The translations under genes were made by a program, and so were the position numbers. Below, one piece after another: positions 22,559-33,865 of a stretch of DNA of 35,663 bases. This DNA is from Prosthecobacter debontii (GTDB lineage Bacteria > Verrucomicrobiota > Verrucomicrobiia > Verrucomicrobiales > Verrucomicrobiaceae). The notes beneath the pieces are model-generated. The model was given only the letters and a program-made list of their open reading frames with translations. It had not been told where the DNA came from and searched no databases. The DNA lies in assembly GCA_945860295.1 (NCBI GenBank), contig CAMAQH010000040.1, forward strand, positions 1 through 35,663. The letters run 5' to 3'. Numbering within the stretch: the stretch's first letter is position 1; every line of letters begins with the position of its first letter.

Positions 22559-23992
22559 CTACTTGGATAATCGCTGCAAAACATTCTTGGTGATGCGCAT
22601 CACGGCGGGATCATTGCCCTGCAAGCCGTGCACCCAGTCGGTGGTAGCGGCGGTGAAGACGGTGCCAGTGTTGGTGTAAAAGCCGAGGCAGGCGGCACCG
22701 GTGCGGCCGATTTCCCATTTCTCATACCACTCGGCATCATCGGGATGCCAGCGGGCGTGACAGGTGCCGAGGACTTCAAAGGTCTTGGGCGTGCCGTCTT
22801 TGTGCGTGGCAAAGGGTAAGCCGTCGCGCCATTCGAGTTCGCAGCCGTCGCATTCATAACCAACGATGGTGTCTTTTCCGCCAAACTTGTCTCCACGCTT
22901 GAGGCCCGTGCCCTCGTAGATCCAGTGCTCGGGGCGGTGCACTTCGTATTCAGATGGTTCCTCCATGAATTGGCCGTGGCTTTTACGATACCCACCCCAG
23001 AGGAAGCCGACGCCGGTGAGTTGATTTTCAGGACGCTGGAGGAGGTGATGACTCCAGAGTGTACTGAGCGTTTTGAAGTCGCGTGTCGCGAAGACGGGAT
23101 CGAGAAGGTAGTTCTGCTTGTAGCAGGTGAAGGCGCGCCCGTTATCCTCACTGCGGACCTGCCAGCAGCAGGTATTGCCGCTAAAGAAAGCTACGTTGCC
23201 GCCTTTGGCGATCCATGCCTCCAGGTTGTCGCGCATCGGTGTGCTCCAGTACTCATCATGGCCGACGCTGAGGACAAGCTTGTAGTTAGCCAGAATCTCG
23301 GGGCGGAATTCGAGATCGTCATTGGCGGCGAACTCAAGCGCATAGCCGCTCTTCTCCGCCCAGATGACGAAGGGCAGTTCCCAAAGGCTGAATTGCGGCG
23401 AGCCAGGCCGCTCGAAGCTTGCGCGATGGCCCTGGTTATTTGACACGCTATTGTAGGCATAGATGGAGAAACCGCCCCAGTTGTTGTAGGCGTTGTAAGT
23501 GTTCGTGCAAAGTTGAAGGAGGATCTTCGAGGTCGTGCCCGGATTCGCCTGACGCACGATGAAGAACGAACTACTCGTCGCGGTGCGCGCGCCACGATGC
23601 GTCCATTTGCCTCCGCCATCAGCCGCACGGAAGACGATTTCATAATAGCCCGACTTCCACTCAGCACCCACCGGCACGCGCACGCTCTCCGGCCAATGAC
23701 AGCCATTCGCACTGGCATCCTCCGGCACCGGCTGCACCTGACCGGGGACATCGGATTTCTTCCACACGATCTCACGCGCGGCACCGAGCCTCGCGACCTC
23801 GATCTCAAATTTCGCCGCCGTGGTGCTGACGTGGATGGGGATTTCTTCACCCTGAGCGACACTGCGCTGGCCGGCATAACCTTCGATGAAGAGCGAGACG
23901 GGATCAGCGCCGTGAAGCGCTGAGGCGACGAGAAGAAGTGCGAGTGAACCGAGCATGAGATGGCTACGGCAAACTTGCGCAGTGGCTTTCAT
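22559..23992 (-). CDS. Secreted protein with N,N-dimethylformamidase beta-subunit-like domain
   Basis: The 477-residue product has a signal peptide (LGSLALLLVASALHGA), an N-terminal beta-sandwich (about 25-135) and a large domain. The large domain has LCTNTYNAYNNWGGFSIYAYNS, SVGHDEYWSTPMRDNLEAWIAKGGNVAFFSGN and WKSGYYEI. These are characteristic of the C-terminal half of the dimethylformamidase large subunit (DMFA2_C-type, a glutamine-amidotransferase-like fold). Known members split amides. A true formamidase also needs a small subunit, which is not here, so this is a relative of unknown substrate. The frame runs to 24160, but ATG at 23992 puts the signal peptide at the N-terminus. It is divergent from the chimeric pseudogene 52 nt away. 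Confidence 0.75.
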   Translation of the reverse strand: MKATAQVCRSHLMLGSLALLLVASALHGADPVSLFIEGYAGQRSVAQGEEIPIHVSTTAAKFEIEVARLGAAREIVWKKSDVPGQVQPVPEDASANGCHWPESVRVPVGAEWKSGYYEIVFRAADGGGKWTHRGARTATSSSFFIVRQANPGTTSKILLQLCTNTYNAYNNWGGFSIYAYNSVSNNQGHRASFERPGSPQFSLWELPFVIWAEKSGYALEFAANDDLEFRPEILANYKLVLSVGHDEYWSTPMRDNLEAWIAKGGNVAFFSGNTCCWQVRSEDNGRAFTCYKQNYLLDPVFATRDFKTLSTLWSHHLLQRPENQLTGVGFLWGGYRKSHGQFMEEPSEYEVHRPEHWIYEGTGLKRGDKFGGKDTIVGYECDGCELEWRDGLPFATHKDGTPKTFEVLGTCHARWHPDDAEWYEKWEIGRTGAACLGFYTNTGTVFTAATTDWVHGLQGNDPAVMRITKNVLQRLSK

Positions 23993-24044
23993 GAACCGCA
24001 GACCAAGGCAAACCCAGCCGACACGAAGCGCATGAGTCTCCACC

Positions 24045-25091
24045 ATGAACAAGCTCACACGCAGCCAGTTTGCCCTCGCCACATTCACTGCACCCGCCAT
24101 TCTCAAAGCCTCTGGTGCGGTTGATAAAATCAACCTCGCCTTTATCGGCCCTGGCAGCATGGGAAGGAATCACGTCAAGACAATGTGTTCGCGCAGTGAT
24201 GTCATCTTCTCCTTGTCTGTGCTGCTGACTTCAAGCGCGCAGCAGCAGCGACGCAGACCATCAACGAACTCACCGGCCAGACGCCGAAGATTATCAGCGA
24301 CATGCGCAAGGTGTTTGATGACAAAGCGACACAGGCGGTCGTGATGCCCCCCGGATCACCGGCATACGCCAGGAGCAATCATGGCAGCAAACTCAGGCAT
24401 GCATGTCGAGAAGACCTTCTGTCACAATCCACGTGAAGCTAGGCTCATGATCGAGGCGGGGGCGAAGAACAAGATCGTCATGCAAGTCGGCACGCAGAGT
24501 CACAGCACGGCGCACGTCATGGGCATCGTCAAGAAACTGCGTAGCGCTATCATCGGCAATGTCTCGGTAGCGCAGGTCATCGTCGCGTATGAGCGCAATT
24601 TGATGACACCAGATTCACCGTTTGATCGCTTCATCCGCAGCGACAAGAGCACGATAACGCCGAACCAACAACGCGGTATGGAGGTGTTTTAGAAAGCTCA
24701 ATGCTCGTTCTGCCACAATGTCCCCATGCTCTCCGACTACAACCTTCACGCCATCGGCGTCACTGACTCCAGCACCACGCGGCGCGAGTTACGCACACCG
24801 ACACTGAAAAACTTGAAACACACCGCGCCCTACATGCATCACGGCAGCATCAAGTCAGTGGCTGAGGTACTAATGTTCGATGATCAACTTATGGATCATG
24901 TCAGCGAGTCGCTCAAAGGTGGTGCTGCTACCTCACTGCCGCCGCTTGATCCCCTGCTCCGCAAGATGAACCTGCTGCCTGAATATCACGAGCTACTCGC
25001 CACGTTTCTTGATGCAATGAACAGTAACGACTACGACAAGACCGTGGCAAAGCATGTGCCCTGTGACCTGCCAGTGGCAGGCATCTATTAA
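24045..25091 (+). pseudogene. Chimeric pseudogene: Gfo/Idh/MocA N-terminus joined to di-haem cytochrome c peroxidase C-terminus
   Basis: 24045-24210 encodes a short export-like N-terminus and the Rossmann start INLAFIGPGSMGRNHV. A one-base loss near 24210-24217 moves the frame (ADFKRAAAATQTINELTGQTP). A one-base gain in the C-run 24347-24352 restores it at PDHRHTPGAIMAANSGMHVEKTF. Near 24550-24575 the protein changes family: VIVAYERNLMTPDSPFDRF onward is the C-terminal half of a MauG/cytochrome c peroxidase protein. In it a TAG (24690-24692) replaces a codon just before the haem site CSFCH. The frame then continues without a break through TPTLKNLKHTAPYMHHGSIK to 25091. With two frameshifts, one stop and a mid-gene fusion, it is non-functional. 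It probably arose by deletion between an oxidoreductase gene and a peroxidase gene. Confidence 0.85.
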
Positions 25092-28204: not shown

Positions 28205-31200
28205 TTACTTCGGCAGCATGGTGAAGTACTGCGCCTCAAGCTGCTTCACCTTGGCACGCAGCGGTTCAAGCTGCGGCTGGAGCTTGGTGAGTTCGGCATT
28301 GATCTCGACCAGGTTTTTGTCACGCACAGGTCCGTCCTTCAAAGTGGCGGCAATGCTGGTTTCAGCAGCGACCTTCTGCTTCTTGGAGTTCTCCAGCGCC
28401 TCAGTCGCCTTGGTGACTTCGGCCTTCTTGGCATCGACGATTTTGATTTCGCCTTCGAGCTTGGCACGCGCATCAGCAAAGGTTTTGTCCAAAGGTGGCT
28501 GGGCCGCTTTGAGCTGAGCGATCACGTCTGCCACGGGTTTTGATTTGGCAGCAAACTCAGCAACAAGTGCGGCAGGCACGGCCAGCTTATCAGCGCGCGC
28601 CTTGTCCTGTGCGGCGATCTCTTTGCTGATGCTCTCATGCTGACCGCGCAGAGGTGCGGCGACCTTGTCTGCGGCGGCAAATTCAGCCTTGGCCTGCGTG
28701 AGTTTCTTCTCCACCTGAGCGGCGGCATTGGTGGCTGCGGCGAGCTCAGACTTGGCTTTGCCATGAGCCTGACGGGCATCATTCAAAGCCTTATCACCAG
28801 CAGTCTTGGCTGCGCGACGGGCATCGAGTTCTGTCTGAGCTTTGGCGACTAGATCGGCAGGCTTGTCTTTGGCGCTCTTCGCGTCTGCCAGGGCTTTCTC
28901 TGCCGCCTTGGTATCAGCAATCAGTTTCGGTAGAACAGCCTCAGCATCCTTGATGGCCTTTTCTTTGGCTGGCAAGGATGGAGCAAGGTCAGTCACTGCC
29001 TTCTTTGAGGCTGCGGCATTCGGCTCGATGGCGGTGACATTGGCCTGCTTGCTCTTCACCTGCTCGGTTGGGCCTTTCAGTTTGGCAGCGACTTCAGCGA
29101 GCGTTTTTTTGCGGCCATCGATGACCTTCGTGATGTCTTCAACGGCTTTCTTTGCGGCGGCGGTTCCGTCATCGCGTGTCTTGGTGAGTGCAGCGAGTTC
29201 AGCCTCACGAGTGCCGACTTTTTTCTTGTGTTCTTCCAGCATCGCAGAAGCGGCAAGGTCAGCTGCTTTGGTCGGCGTCACGGCTTGCTCGATGCCGTTG
29301 AGCTCAGCCTTCAGCTTGTTGAGCGTGGCCTCGTTCTGTGGGATGGCGTTGGTCATCTCGGCCACTACTTTCTTGGCGGACTCAATGCGCGCGGCGTTGT
29401 TGATCTTGGCGTCTTCGTTCTCTTTCTTCGCGGCGGTGTAATCGTTGAAACTGCCATCGAGTTTAGCGAGACTCTCTTTCTCGGTAAGCACACCGACATT
29501 GAACTGCGCGGCTTTGAGCGTGGTGGGCAGTTTCTGGAAGATGTTAATATCAATGCTGGCTGACATGGCTGTGGCTTGTGCGTCGACCAGGACACCCTTG
29601 TCCTGTGCGAGCGCGGCTTCGCTGCCTTTGATCCGATCCGGGCCTGCTTTGACCAAAGCGGGCAGCTTGGGCAGCTCCGCCTTTTTCGCGGCGATACTCT
29701 CACCGGTGGCCTTCACCTTGGCGGTGTTATCGGTGATCAGTTTGTCCAAATCAGCCACAGGAGCCGGTGCAGCTCCGAGGGCGGCCTTTGCTCTCTCGAC
29801 TGCGGCGGCGAGTTGATCCGCCTTGGCTTTAATGGGGGCGATCTTTTGCTGCTGGGCTTTCGCGGCAGTGAGTTTGCCTTCCACATCTTTCATCCTCGCG
29901 GTGAGAGCGGCATCTCCAGTCTTGGCTGCAAGTTCCTTCCTGGCTGCCTCAAGCGCGGCAGTCGCATCGACGACGCCCTTATCAGCAGCAGGCAGTTTGG
30001 CGGCCTCAGTGGCGATGTTAGCCAGCTCTTTCTGCTGCGCTGCCAGCTGGGCGGACTTGTCGGCATAGACCTTGATGGCAGCTGTGCGGGCTAACTTATC
30101 AGCCGTGGCTTTAGCGAGCGCGGCCTTGGCCTCAGCGCGGACTTTCTCTTCCGCTGCGATCTCGCCAGGGTAGCTCTTGGTGCGTCTCTCAAATTCAGCG
30201 ACATCGGCACGGACTTTAGCCAGCGTCTCCCCGCGAGCTTTCACTAAGGCCTCGGCTTTCTTGATGGCCTCCTGGAGTGAAGGCAGCTTAGCCACAAGTT
30301 CAGTAGCACTCTTCTCAGACTCGACGATGCGCTGGGCGATCAGCGGCGGGTTGCTGGAAAGCGCGCCCCGGTCCGCCATCTTAGCATCGAGAGTCAGCAG
30401 CTTCACCTCACCACGCCAGTTGGCGCTCACGCAGTTTTTTGAATCATAGAGCGCCACCACTTTGGTCACGATGTCACCCTGGTTCACAGCTTCAGATTTC
30501 TTATTGCCATTGATGTCCCAGACGCGGACGAGGCCATCATTGCCAGCAGAAACGAGGTTACCATCCGGCGTGAAAGACACCGACTGCACGCCACCACTGT
30601 GAGCGGCCCAGCCTTTGACCAGCTTACCTTCATTCATCTCATGGACGTTGATGACACCGTCTGCGGAGCATGAGGCCAGGATATTGGAGTCAGCACGCCA
30701 GGCGAGATCGGTGCAGGCTGCTTTGTGCTGAGTCAGTCCATAAAACTCACCACCACTCGCCGCTTCCCAGACGAGCACATTGCCATTGCGGTCACTCGTC
30801 GCTAGCAGCACGCCATCGGGGCTAAAAGACGTGCCCATCACCCATTCCGTGTGCTTGCTGATCACATACATCTCCTCACCCGTCGCCGAGTCATACACCT
30901 TCACTTTTTTCGATGGGCTACCGATCACCACCATCTTGTGATTGGGGCTGATGTCTGCGCTCATCACCTGATCAAATTCCTTGCCGACTTCGATGATGCG
31001 TTTCCCCGTCTTCACATCCCAGACCACCGCGTGGCCCACCTTACCACCGCGGCCGCCACCCATCACGAGCAGGGAGCCATTGCGGCTGAAATTCAGGCTG
31101 CGTGCATAGCCCTCGGTGTAGGGGAAAATGCCGGCGAGCTGGCGCGTGTCCGTGTCGTAGAGCAGGATCTGCTTCGGTGCGGCAAAAGCGACCAACGAGG

Positions 31201-31732
31201 TCCACGGGCTCGCGGCCATCGCCGTCACCGCCGTTGTCCGTGGCGTCACCACCACTGGCTGTAGCAGCACGTGCTCAGGCTTAGCGATCGGCCCCGCAGG
31301 CTTGCCGCTCGTCACCGCCACCGCCATGTCCACCTTCGGCTTGTTCGACTTCTTGGCGATGCTGGATTTTGTCTCCAGCATACCGCCCGTGATCCACTTG
31401 GAGAGCATTTCCAGATCCTTGGCACTCAGTGCCGTGCCTTCTGGCGGCATGAAAGGCTCCTCTTTCTTCGCGCAGAGCGACCAGAGACGGCTGGCACTCG
31501 GATTCCCCGCATCCACGATGGCACCACCACCGCCGCCAGTCATCAGAGCGCCCATACTGGTCAGGTCGAGATCACCCTTTTTCTTGTCCGGGTTATGGCA
31601 GGAGAAGCATTTGTTCTCCAGCAGCGGTCGGATCTGGTCTTCATAGGTGATCTTCTCTCCATCCTGGGCAAAAGCAGGCGCAGAAAGCAGGGTGAGACAG
31701 GTCAGTGAGGCGAGGGCGTGACGACGGTACAT
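28205..31732 (-). CDS. PSCyt1 cytochrome c / WD40 / long coiled-coil protein
   Basis: The 1175-residue product has a signal peptide (about 1-22), then a planctomycete-type cytochrome c domain (about 28-120). Its haem site CFSCH is at 42-46 and a probable axial Met is in EEPFMPPEGT (M95). A WD40 propeller follows at about 150-480 (for example GEEMYVISKHTEWVMGTSFSPDG, KGWAAHSGGVQSVSFTPDG), with about six to seven blades. From about 490 to 1170 it is a long Ala/Lys/Glu-rich coiled coil with few Gly/Pro breaks. PSCyt1-WD40 proteins are typical of PVC bacteria and are thought to link a periplasmic haem to protein-protein contacts; the partner is unknown. The very long coiled coil suggests a rod or spacer reaching out from the membrane. 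No membrane anchor is seen at the C-terminus. Confidence 0.88.
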   Translation of the reverse strand: MYRRHALASLTCLTLLSAPAFAQDGEKITYEDQIRPLLENKCFSCHNPDKKKGDLDLTSMGALMTGGGGGAIVDAGNPSASRLWSLCAKKEEPFMPPEGTALSAKDLEMLSKWITGGMLETKSSIAKKSNKPKVDMAVAVTSGKPAGPIAKPEHVLLQPVVVTPRTTAVTAMAASPWTSLVAFAAPKQILLYDTDTRQLAGIFPYTEGYARSLNFSRNGSLLVMGGGRGGKVGHAVVWDVKTGKRIIEVGKEFDQVMSADISPNHKMVVIGSPSKKVKVYDSATGEEMYVISKHTEWVMGTSFSPDGVLLATSDRNGNVLVWEAASGGEFYGLTQHKAACTDLAWRADSNILASCSADGVINVHEMNEGKLVKGWAAHSGGVQSVSFTPDGNLVSAGNDGLVRVWDINGNKKSEAVNQGDIVTKVVALYDSKNCVSANWRGEVKLLTLDAKMADRGALSSNPPLIAQRIVESEKSATELVAKLPSLQEAIKKAEALVKARGETLAKVRADVAEFERRTKSYPGEIAAEEKVRAEAKAALAKATADKLARTAAIKVYADKSAQLAAQQKELANIATEAAKLPAADKGVVDATAALEAARKELAAKTGDAALTARMKDVEGKLTAAKAQQQKIAPIKAKADQLAAAVERAKAALGAAPAPVADLDKLITDNTAKVKATGESIAAKKAELPKLPALVKAGPDRIKGSEAALAQDKGVLVDAQATAMSASIDINIFQKLPTTLKAAQFNVGVLTEKESLAKLDGSFNDYTAAKKENEDAKINNAARIESAKKVVAEMTNAIPQNEATLNKLKAELNGIEQAVTPTKAADLAASAMLEEHKKKVGTREAELAALTKTRDDGTAAAKKAVEDITKVIDGRKKTLAEVAAKLKGPTEQVKSKQANVTAIEPNAAASKKAVTDLAPSLPAKEKAIKDAEAVLPKLIADTKAAEKALADAKSAKDKPADLVAKAQTELDARRAAKTAGDKALNDARQAHGKAKSELAAATNAAAQVEKKLTQAKAEFAAADKVAAPLRGQHESISKEIAAQDKARADKLAVPAALVAEFAAKSKPVADVIAQLKAAQPPLDKTFADARAKLEGEIKIVDAKKAEVTKATEALENSKKQKVAAETSIAATLKDGPVRDKNLVEINAELTKLQPQLEPLRAKVKQLEAQYFTMLPK

Positions 31733-32729: not shown

Positions 32730-33431
32730 TTAAGCGACCTTCCGACGATACGCCAAGACCAGAAATGCTCCGAGTCCGAAGAGGGCACAGGTAGAGGGTT
32801 CGGGGACAGAGACGACGCGAAAGCCGAGGTTGTCCTTGCCTAGCGTGACCGAGCCACCCTCCAAAGCCGAGTAGTTGATGCTGATATTATCGACGGAACC
32901 CCAGTTGAAGGTTGAGTCGATTGAGCCTAGGCTGGAGCTGATAAGACCGCTGCTGTTGCTCCCGCGACTAAAAGACCAGTAAGCGTGGTCGTTGCTGCTG
33001 GAGAACCCGACGTAGCCATCCATAGATGGGGTCGTTTCGATATGCAGTCTCATGATCATCTCAGTCGCACTCGCCCCTCCCAGCAAGAGGTTGAGGGGCG
33101 TGGAGGCACTGTAGTTGATTTTAAGCTGTCTGTTTGAGGTTGAGGTCGAGGATCCGGTCGATGGGTTGAACGAAGTCGAGGTGACCCACCCACCATTCAC
33201 ACCGAGGCTGACAATGGCCGAGGGAAAGCCATGGATGGACAGTTCGCGCTGGATGCCGCCGGGTAACGCAGTTCCATTTCCATAGGCTGGCGTCGTGCTG
33301 CCTGGACCTGCGACAGTGTTGTCATAATCCATGAAGCTGTCGATGGTCAGCGTCGACGCGTTGGCAGCGGCGGCAAGCAAACCAGTTCCTACAACCAAAA
33401 AATATTTTTTCAGAGGGGTTTTAATTACCAT
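32730..33431 (-). CDS. PEP-CTERM sorting-domain protein
   Basis: The 233-residue product has a signal peptide (MVIKTPLKKYFLVVGTGLLAA, then ANAS), a Ser/Gly/Thr/Asn-rich beta-sandwich body and a C-terminal PEP-CTERM sorting signal. The sorting signal is VPEPSTCALFGLGAFLVLAYRRKVA: the VPEP motif, a hydrophobic helix and a basic end. Exosortase cuts such signals and passes the protein to the cell surface or exopolysaccharide. No exosortase gene is in the window. The body suggests a lectin-like or beta-barrel fold; function is unknown. Confidence 0.88.
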   Translation of the reverse strand: MVIKTPLKKYFLVVGTGLLAAAANASTLTIDSFMDYDNTVAGPGSTTPAYGNGTALPGGIQRELSIHGFPSAIVSLGVNGGWVTSTSFNPSTGSSTSTSNRQLKINYSASTPLNLLLGGASATEMIMRLHIETTPSMDGYVGFSSSNDHAYWSFSRGSNSSGLISSSLGSIDSTFNWGSVDNISINYSALEGGSVTLGKDNLGFRVVSVPEPSTCALFGLGAFLVLAYRRKVA

Positions 33432-33532: not shown

Positions 33533-33865
33533 TCAGGGCAGGCCCGTGATCGCCTGCTCCAACTCTGGCAGCGCCGTCTGCACCACGTTCCAGACCAATT
33601 CCATATCTACCCCGGCATAGTCATGGACAATGCGGTTGCGCATCCCCGCCATCAGCGCCCACGGCACTTGCGGCTGCGCCGCTTTAAACTCTCCAGTCAG
33701 TTGCTTCGCTGCCTCACCAATGATCTCGATATTCCGCACCACCGCGTCCGTCGTCTTCTCATCGGCCAGGAAAGCCGTCACATCCATCCCCGCCGTGTAG
33801 CGGGCGATTCTCTGCATCGCCTCCCGCATGTCTTGCAGGAGCAGGCTGGCATCACGCTTCGACAT
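33533..33865 (-). CDS. hepT: HepT-family toxin (HEPN RNase)
   Basis: The 110-residue, all-helical HEPN protein has the active-site motif R-x4-H-x-Y at RNRIVHDY (R76, H81, Y83). HepT toxins are RNases. In the HepT/MntA system the partner nucleotidyltransferase adds AMP to the motif tyrosine and so switches the toxin off. Both the catalytic R/H pair and the target tyrosine are intact here. It lies downstream of and overlaps its antitoxin by 14 nt, the usual order. Confidence 0.9.
   Translation of the reverse strand: MSKRDASLLLQDMREAMQRIARYTAGMDVTAFLADEKTTDAVVRNIEIIGEAAKQLTGEFKAAQPQVPWALMAGMRNRIVHDYAGVDMELVWNVVQTALPELEQAITGLP

Follow-up and report, generated by a model that had tools for sequence, protein, structure and literature searches.

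A coil-extended PSCyt1-WD40 haem protein of Prosthecobacter debontii and its co-occurring partner genes in Verrucomicrobiota

Described PSCyt and DUF1501 modules and the locus in P. debontii

Genes that combine PSCyt domains with WD40 have been described in Verrucomicrobia by He et al. 2017 (PMC5615132), who give their function as unknown, list WD40 as a protein-protein interaction domain (legend of their Fig. 8) and suggest that PSCyt genes generally have a link to carbohydrates. Here we analyze a gene of this type in Prosthecobacter debontii, located on a stretch of 35,663 nucleotides (assembly GCA_945860295.1, contig CAMAQH010000040.1, positions 1 to 35,663; hereafter, the window). Its product, c0, carries a PSCyt1 haem domain, a WD40 propeller and a long predicted coiled coil on a single chain. 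Three further protein families recur with it and are referred to as c1 (a DUF1549/DUF1553 cytochrome), c2 (a PPC-domain protein) and c3 (a DUF1501 protein). We propose, with a probability of roughly 0.6, that c0 serves as the subunit carrying haem and propeller in a redox complex of four components (c0-c3) outside the cytoplasm. There is good support for a functional association of c0 with its partners; formation of a complex, transfer of electrons, action on a substrate and the role of the coil are what we infer.

c0 shares both the domain family and the WD40 combination with the genes of He et al. 2017 (PMC5615132); however, the word 'coiled' is absent from the main text of that paper, and its PSCyt section contains neither a four-protein set nor a co-occurrence test. 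A second related system is the DUF1501 module of the Planctomycetes-Verrucomicrobia-Chlamydiae (PVC) bacteria (Kamneva et al. 2012), in which several cluster members have signal peptides (as cited in PMC4452313) and which occurs preferentially in compartmentalised PVC species and is absent from Akkermansia muciniphila (as cited in PMC4960237). The function of such DUF1501 proteins is stated as unknown (PMC4452313). Compared through the descriptions in these citing papers, this module and the c0-c3 set have DUF1501 clusters in common. In Planctomycetes, DUF1501 is a frequent annotation among the neighbours of WD40 genes (PMC5587647), although, unlike what we see for the c0 set, the main text of that study contains no 'cytochrome', 'coiled' or 'Verrucomicrobia'; in other bacteria, DUF1501 lies beside chitin synthase genes (PMC5122149).

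Our literature search, which covered titles and abstract openings of open-licence texts, returned nothing on a coil-bearing c0 or its four-gene set. Since PSCyt-WD40 genes and DUF1501 modules are published, and none was found with the coil or the four-gene set, c0 is most likely a coil-extended variant of these known modules. Haem domains also go together with propeller domains or subunits in hydrazine synthase and in quinohaemoprotein amine dehydrogenase. Neither enzyme showed a significant relation to the c0 set: c1 matches hydrazine synthase alpha weakly in sequence (E 0.069), the amine dehydrogenase came up at rank 16 in a structure search with a poor c1 model, and a search with the haem domain of c0 yielded no solved structure at E up to 1. 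PSCyt and DUF1501 proteins abound in PVC genomes, where most are too redundant to study; with its near-perfect shared profile and clear orthologues, the c0 set could reveal what such modules do.

Co-occurrence and gene neighbourhood of c0 and its partners

Class-wide searches covered 384 genomes with two candidates scored per genome, at thresholds of E 1e-60 for c0 and c2, 1e-200 for c1 and 1e-170 for a control, for which a different DUF1549/DUF1553 protein from the window's genome served. The c1 threshold was chosen after the scores in that genome, where the orthologue reached 1456 bits and the best paralogue 537. We detected c0 in 69 of the 384 genomes, c1 in 68 of those 69 and c2 in exactly those 69; the sole c0 genome without c1 (G078) is a draft of about 590 contigs. 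The control was present in 53 genomes, of which 33 also have c0 and 20 lack it, corresponding to a Jaccard index with c0 of 0.37 as compared to 0.99 for c1. In a separate search across the phylum, 26 of 377 genomes contained c0, five of them outside the class.

Of the 69 genomes, 50 have c0 and c1 on the same strand within less than 1 kb of each other and two at 1-5 kb; in the other 17 the genes are apart, and 16 of these 17 still have c1. c2 is found less than 1 kb from c1 in 39 genomes. In a tree built from 63 c0 proteins, the label adjacent or apart requires four changes ('adjacent' meaning a c1 match of >45% identity in the same locus; L039, L056 and L065, whose neighbourhood is unknown, were excluded). 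Within the window's own genus, four genomes (G017, G033, G168 and G187) have c1 directly before c0. One further genome, G137, contains two c1-c0 pairs, on contigs C8 and C69, with c0 frames of 1067 and 505 amino acids.

To count neighbours we scored 74 of 80 loci, the other six (L049, L060, L085, L098, L110 and L112) having been lost when a longer overlapping open reading frame (ORF) displaced c0; short upstream flanks were scored as misses. Counted this way, the c1 family (median 937 residues) lies immediately upstream of c0 in 33 loci, the c2 family (median 824 residues) two genes upstream in 31, and the c3 DUF1501 family upstream in 20. The gap between c1 and c0, measured to the first possible start codon, ranges from -40 to 171 nucleotides over the 33 loci. 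Another neighbourhood cluster (cluster 6) probably consists of antisense ORFs over c1 and c2, and in Opitutae loci (for example L100:9366-10592) a polysaccharide pyruvyl transferase family gene of about 410 amino acids (cluster 4) follows c0, at position +1 in 11 loci and at +3 in three.

The partners have recognizable domains, with no curated NCBIfam name above cut-off for c1, c2 or c3. c1 contains PSCyt1, DUF1549 (PSCyt2) and DUF1553 (PSD1), with an Ig-like Big_2 domain as well in L069. Two CxxCH motifs are present in the c1 proteins of 37 of 42 loci and of the window's own genome, one in the remaining five loci, and a third haem-type motif, CX4CH, is invariant in 31 aligned c1 proteins. c2 carries PPC, and c3, a DUF1501 protein, has a start that looks twin-arginine-like by eye.

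In the window, the neighbours of c0 are a HAD hydrolase, a 90-amino-acid ORF and an RNA methyltransferase of the Pfam family Methyltransf_10; no DUF1501 or DUF1549/DUF1553 gene was found adjoining it. The original prediction that no partner genes for electron transfer are adjacent thus holds for the window itself, but not for the 33 loci with c1 directly upstream, and the partner orthologues of P. debontii are encoded on other contigs. Contig C54 holds those of c1 and c2 together (67% and 59% identity, respectively, to the Verrucomicrobium proteins), with a gene other than c0 after c1, and the c3 orthologue lies on C6 (83% identity; the runner-up among 70 matches has 43%). The set is therefore intact in this genome, but distributed over three contigs.

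The same genome (G000, 4.68 Mb) is rich in paralogues, with 56 matches to c0, mostly to its PSCyt1 part, and 70 to one DUF1501 protein, some in either case being pieces of one gene. Paralogous sets on C7 and C6 comprise DUF1549/DUF1553 genes followed by large proteins without a Pfam match (c2-like on C7), together with DUF1501 genes and WD40 genes whose start matches PSCyt1. Two paralogues are fusions. A 1727-residue ORF on C9 (L130:3064-8244, minus strand) joins PSCyt1 and WD40 to DUF1549 and DUF1553, that is, c0-like to c1-like parts, and a 1221-residue ORF on C3 (L129:2053-5715, minus strand), beside DUF1549/DUF1553 and DUF1501 genes, joins PSCyt1 and WD40 to PPC. Such fusions of paralogous domains argue that the proteins, where separate, associate physically.

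An invariant haem motif, a propeller and a variable coil

The gene had been listed without a strand; it reads on the minus strand, from 31732 to 28205, and the plus strand contains 13 stops over the same interval. Its features are as follows.

28205..31732, minus strand: c0, PSCyt1-WD40-coil protein of 1175 amino acids (ATG start, stop included)
31667..31732, minus strand: signal-peptide-like start, residues 1-22, judged by eye
31436..31609, minus strand: PSCyt1 haem domain (PF07635), residues 42-99 (Pfam E 5.9e-14, 52.8 bits, cut-off 22)
31595..31609, minus strand: CFSCH haem attachment motif, residues 42-46, identical in 69 of 69 sequences
31436..31450, minus strand: MPPEG, residues 95-99, with a putative methionine haem ligand, identical in 69 of 69 sequences
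30356..31219, minus strand: seven-bladed WD40 propeller, residues 172-459 (Pfam, AlphaFold2 strands, Foldseek)
29777..30340, minus strand: predicted coil stretch 1, residues 465-652 (AlphaFold2 and heptad periodicity)
28877..29755, minus strand: predicted coil stretch 2, residues 660-952 (AlphaFold2 and heptad periodicity)
29468..29518, minus strand: conserved island within the coil, residues 739-755 (L739, A741, A742, F744, N745 and L755 invariant in 54 sequences)
28217..28858, minus strand: predicted coil stretch 3, residues 959-1172 (AlphaFold2 and heptad periodicity)
28208..28282, minus strand: conserved C-terminal tail, residues 1151-1175 (Y1169, L1173 and P1174 invariant in 54 sequences)

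Judging from its start, c0 is probably exported. The combination of haem domain, propeller and long coil on one chain, as originally proposed, was borne out by Pfam, AlphaFold2, Foldseek and heptad periodicity. While the layout is real, it is less unusual than had been thought: full-length c0 homologues occur across Verrucomicrobiaceae and Opitutae (among the best 79 loci), and the PSCyt-WD40 combination as such was already in print (PMC5615132).

Conservation was assessed on 69 full-length c0 sequences, obtained from the 80 loci after dropping ten open-ended ORFs and a short one. Haem domain and propeller are strongly conserved; the coil, with its long indels, and the signal-peptide-like start are the most variable regions, the island and the C-terminal tail excepted. 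C42, C45, H46, M95, P96 and P97 are each identical in 69 of 69 sequences, an alignment that includes the window's own and near-identical sequences, and the haem site, whose degeneracy across homologues had been raised as a test, is thus intact in CxxCH motif and putative methionine ligand alike. Furthermore, class-wide c0 matches start at or before query residue 24 in all 69 genomes, whereas 35 of 70 class-wide c1 matches start past PSCyt1. As judged from these match boundaries, the haem domain of c0 is the one that is always kept, unlike the PSCyt1 domain of c1.

The AlphaFold2 model of c0, built from 54 sequences, has a mean predicted local distance difference test (pLDDT) score of 80.4 and a predicted template-modelling (pTM) score of 0.48; confidence is low in the haem domain (below 50 for residues 34-71). 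The propeller is detected by Pfam as WD40 (PF00400; 91.8 bits, cut-off 27), and its best Foldseek match is 7bie_A, a seven-bladed symmetric propeller (TM score 0.92 on the target).

Residues 465-1172 are helical in the model, interrupted by two longer breaks (653-659 and 953-958) and by several short ones of one to four residues. At 0.15 nm per residue, the three stretches (188, 293 and 214 residues) would measure about 28, 44 and 32 nm, and there are 29 prolines from residue 456 onward. The hydrophobic periodicity of the coil peaks at 3.50 residues with a power of 0.64, far above 100 shuffled sequences (mean 0.14, maximum 0.22 at that period), and the median peak over the 69 c0 sequences is likewise 3.50. 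This heptad signal and the predicted helices speak for a coiled coil in the C-terminal part, the very point on which the original prediction could have failed. The 680 residues given there are better put at about 700, and the model predicts three long helical stretches rather than one unbroken rod.

A Pfam scan of the coil on its own gave no match at E up to 0.01. Membership of the SMC and Rad50 families was considered and rejected, as scores fell well below the NCBIfam cut-offs (53.4 versus 567 bits for SMC, 23 versus 1087 for Rad50), with matches confined to the coil. The breaks in the AlphaFold2 model also prompted the idea of an antiparallel hairpin. Coil arm lengths gave a Spearman correlation of 0.54 (Pearson 0.23) over 69 sequences, and a non-significant one of 0.34 (p 0.08) after thinning to 27. 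The strongest proline/glycine window fell near the coil midpoint in only two of 51 sequences, and the helix-propensity profile was no sharper there than at other anchors. (L052, L097 and L114 were excluded from the proline/glycine, helix-propensity and tree analyses, L078 from the helix-propensity analysis as well.) c0 proteins of the Opitutae type (for example L100) have a conserved aromatic motif (like FGAVFSFSYFSRKKQT) in the middle of the second coil half, which runs from the island to the C-terminus; Verrucomicrobiaceae often have proline or glycine at the same position, a possible coil tip.

The length of c0 varies widely, from 419 to 1383 residues over 74 matching open frames. In G257, G414, G426 and G280, c0 comprises 454-463 residues, directly follows c1 and ends past the propeller; unrelated genes lie beyond it in three of them, and the G280 contig stops shortly downstream. 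The proteins of G257 and G426 share 42-44% identity with the query, on par with coil-bearing relatives; those of G280 and G414, which may be paralogues, share 34-36%. Because the coil is the least conserved part of c0 and is missing from some relatives encoded beside c1, it is accessory, with haem domain and propeller as the conserved working part. About 1.2 kb downstream of the coil-less c2-c1-c0 operon of G426 lies a gene (L139:7538-8500, plus strand) whose start, judged by eye, resembles NuoD of complex I, with one opposite-strand ORF in between; this arrangement was seen in a single genome.

Proposed role, alternatives and other genes in the window

Our proposal of a redox complex builds on the shared profile of c0, c1 and c2, their adjacency, the persistence of the partners where c0 has moved, the paralogue fusions and the invariant haem motif. 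c0, c1, c2 and c3 would form one assembly, in which the propeller of c0 would dock c1, c2 or both. c1, perhaps with c3, would act on a substrate, and electrons would pass from the c1 haems to the single c0 haem and from there into the respiratory chain. The coil might serve as a lineage-variable spacer or anchor, its central island and C-terminal tail possibly binding another envelope component. This comes close to the original suggestion that c0 carries electrons to, or holds together, a large envelope assembly, either role being one that we infer. More tentatively, and with the odds somewhat against it, the four proteins could make up, in free-living Verrucomicrobiota, a discrete multi-haem enzyme complex of undescribed chemistry, distinct from the dozens of PSCyt/DUF1501 paralogues, in which the coil, from none to about 700 residues, would be a lineage-tuned spacer that fixes its position in the envelope.

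Several observations weigh against a redox complex of this composition. The c0 and c1 genes are separated in 17 of 69 genomes, and in 30 of 69 no c2 lies within 1 kb of c1. The Fisher p-value of 1.7e-75 for c0 with c1, uncorrected for phylogeny, overstates the evidence because the genomes are related rather than independent observations; the persistence of c1 where the genes are separated is the stronger point in favour of an association. Extra coil-less PSCyt1-WD40 genes of 33-40% identity exist in several relatives (twelve candidates scored per genome), so that 'one per genome' is valid solely for the closer c0 form, and in G280 and G414 the only evidence of c0 is the weaker short form. Neither is c1 uniform in haem count, given the matches that start past PSCyt1 and the five of 42 loci with one CxxCH, nor was a catalytic fold found in it, on a poor model (mean pLDDT 58.4) whose structural matches below E 1e-3 are mainly Ig-like and S-layer. 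Lastly, the membership of c3 rests on its upstream position in 20 loci and on one genome.

Among the alternatives, we consider it unlikely, if the most credible of the three, that c0 is mainly a structural tether whose coil would stretch across the envelope or line it and hold the propeller in position, the haem being structural or a relic. The strong heptad signal would fit this, as would the conserved island and tail, which suggest specific contacts. In addition, Pfam detects no further domain within the coil, and the best 25 of 49 Pfam matches for the whole protein include no enzyme family. Yet it is the haem motif that is invariant and the coil that is least conserved, and the coil is missing from relatives that sit beside the same partner. 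A redox or ligand sensor, in which the haem senses and propeller and coil relay the signal, is the least probable reading: while a haem beside a propeller and long helices would suit a relay, no signalling family appeared in the NCBIfam scan, in the Pfam scan of the coil or among those 25 Pfam matches, and the genes conserved around c0 encode DUF1501, PPC and cytochrome proteins rather than regulators.

The window itself invites the thought that c0 has become detached from the module in this lineage and works alone, as it is flanked there by the hydrolase, the small ORF and the methyltransferase gene rather than by c1. We rate this as hardly more probable than the sensor. All three partner orthologues are retained in the genome, c1 is kept in all but one of the genomes with c0 apart, and the haem motif is unchanged in separated lineages too, across the four changes between adjacent and apart on the tree.

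Beyond c0 and its neighbours, three minus-strand genes of the window were assigned to families. A protein with an N,N-dimethylformamidase beta-subunit-like C-terminal domain (PF20254) is encoded at 22559-24160, a PEP-CTERM motif protein (PF07589) at 32730-33431, and a HepT-like ribonuclease (PF01934, 106.6 bits) at 33533-33865.

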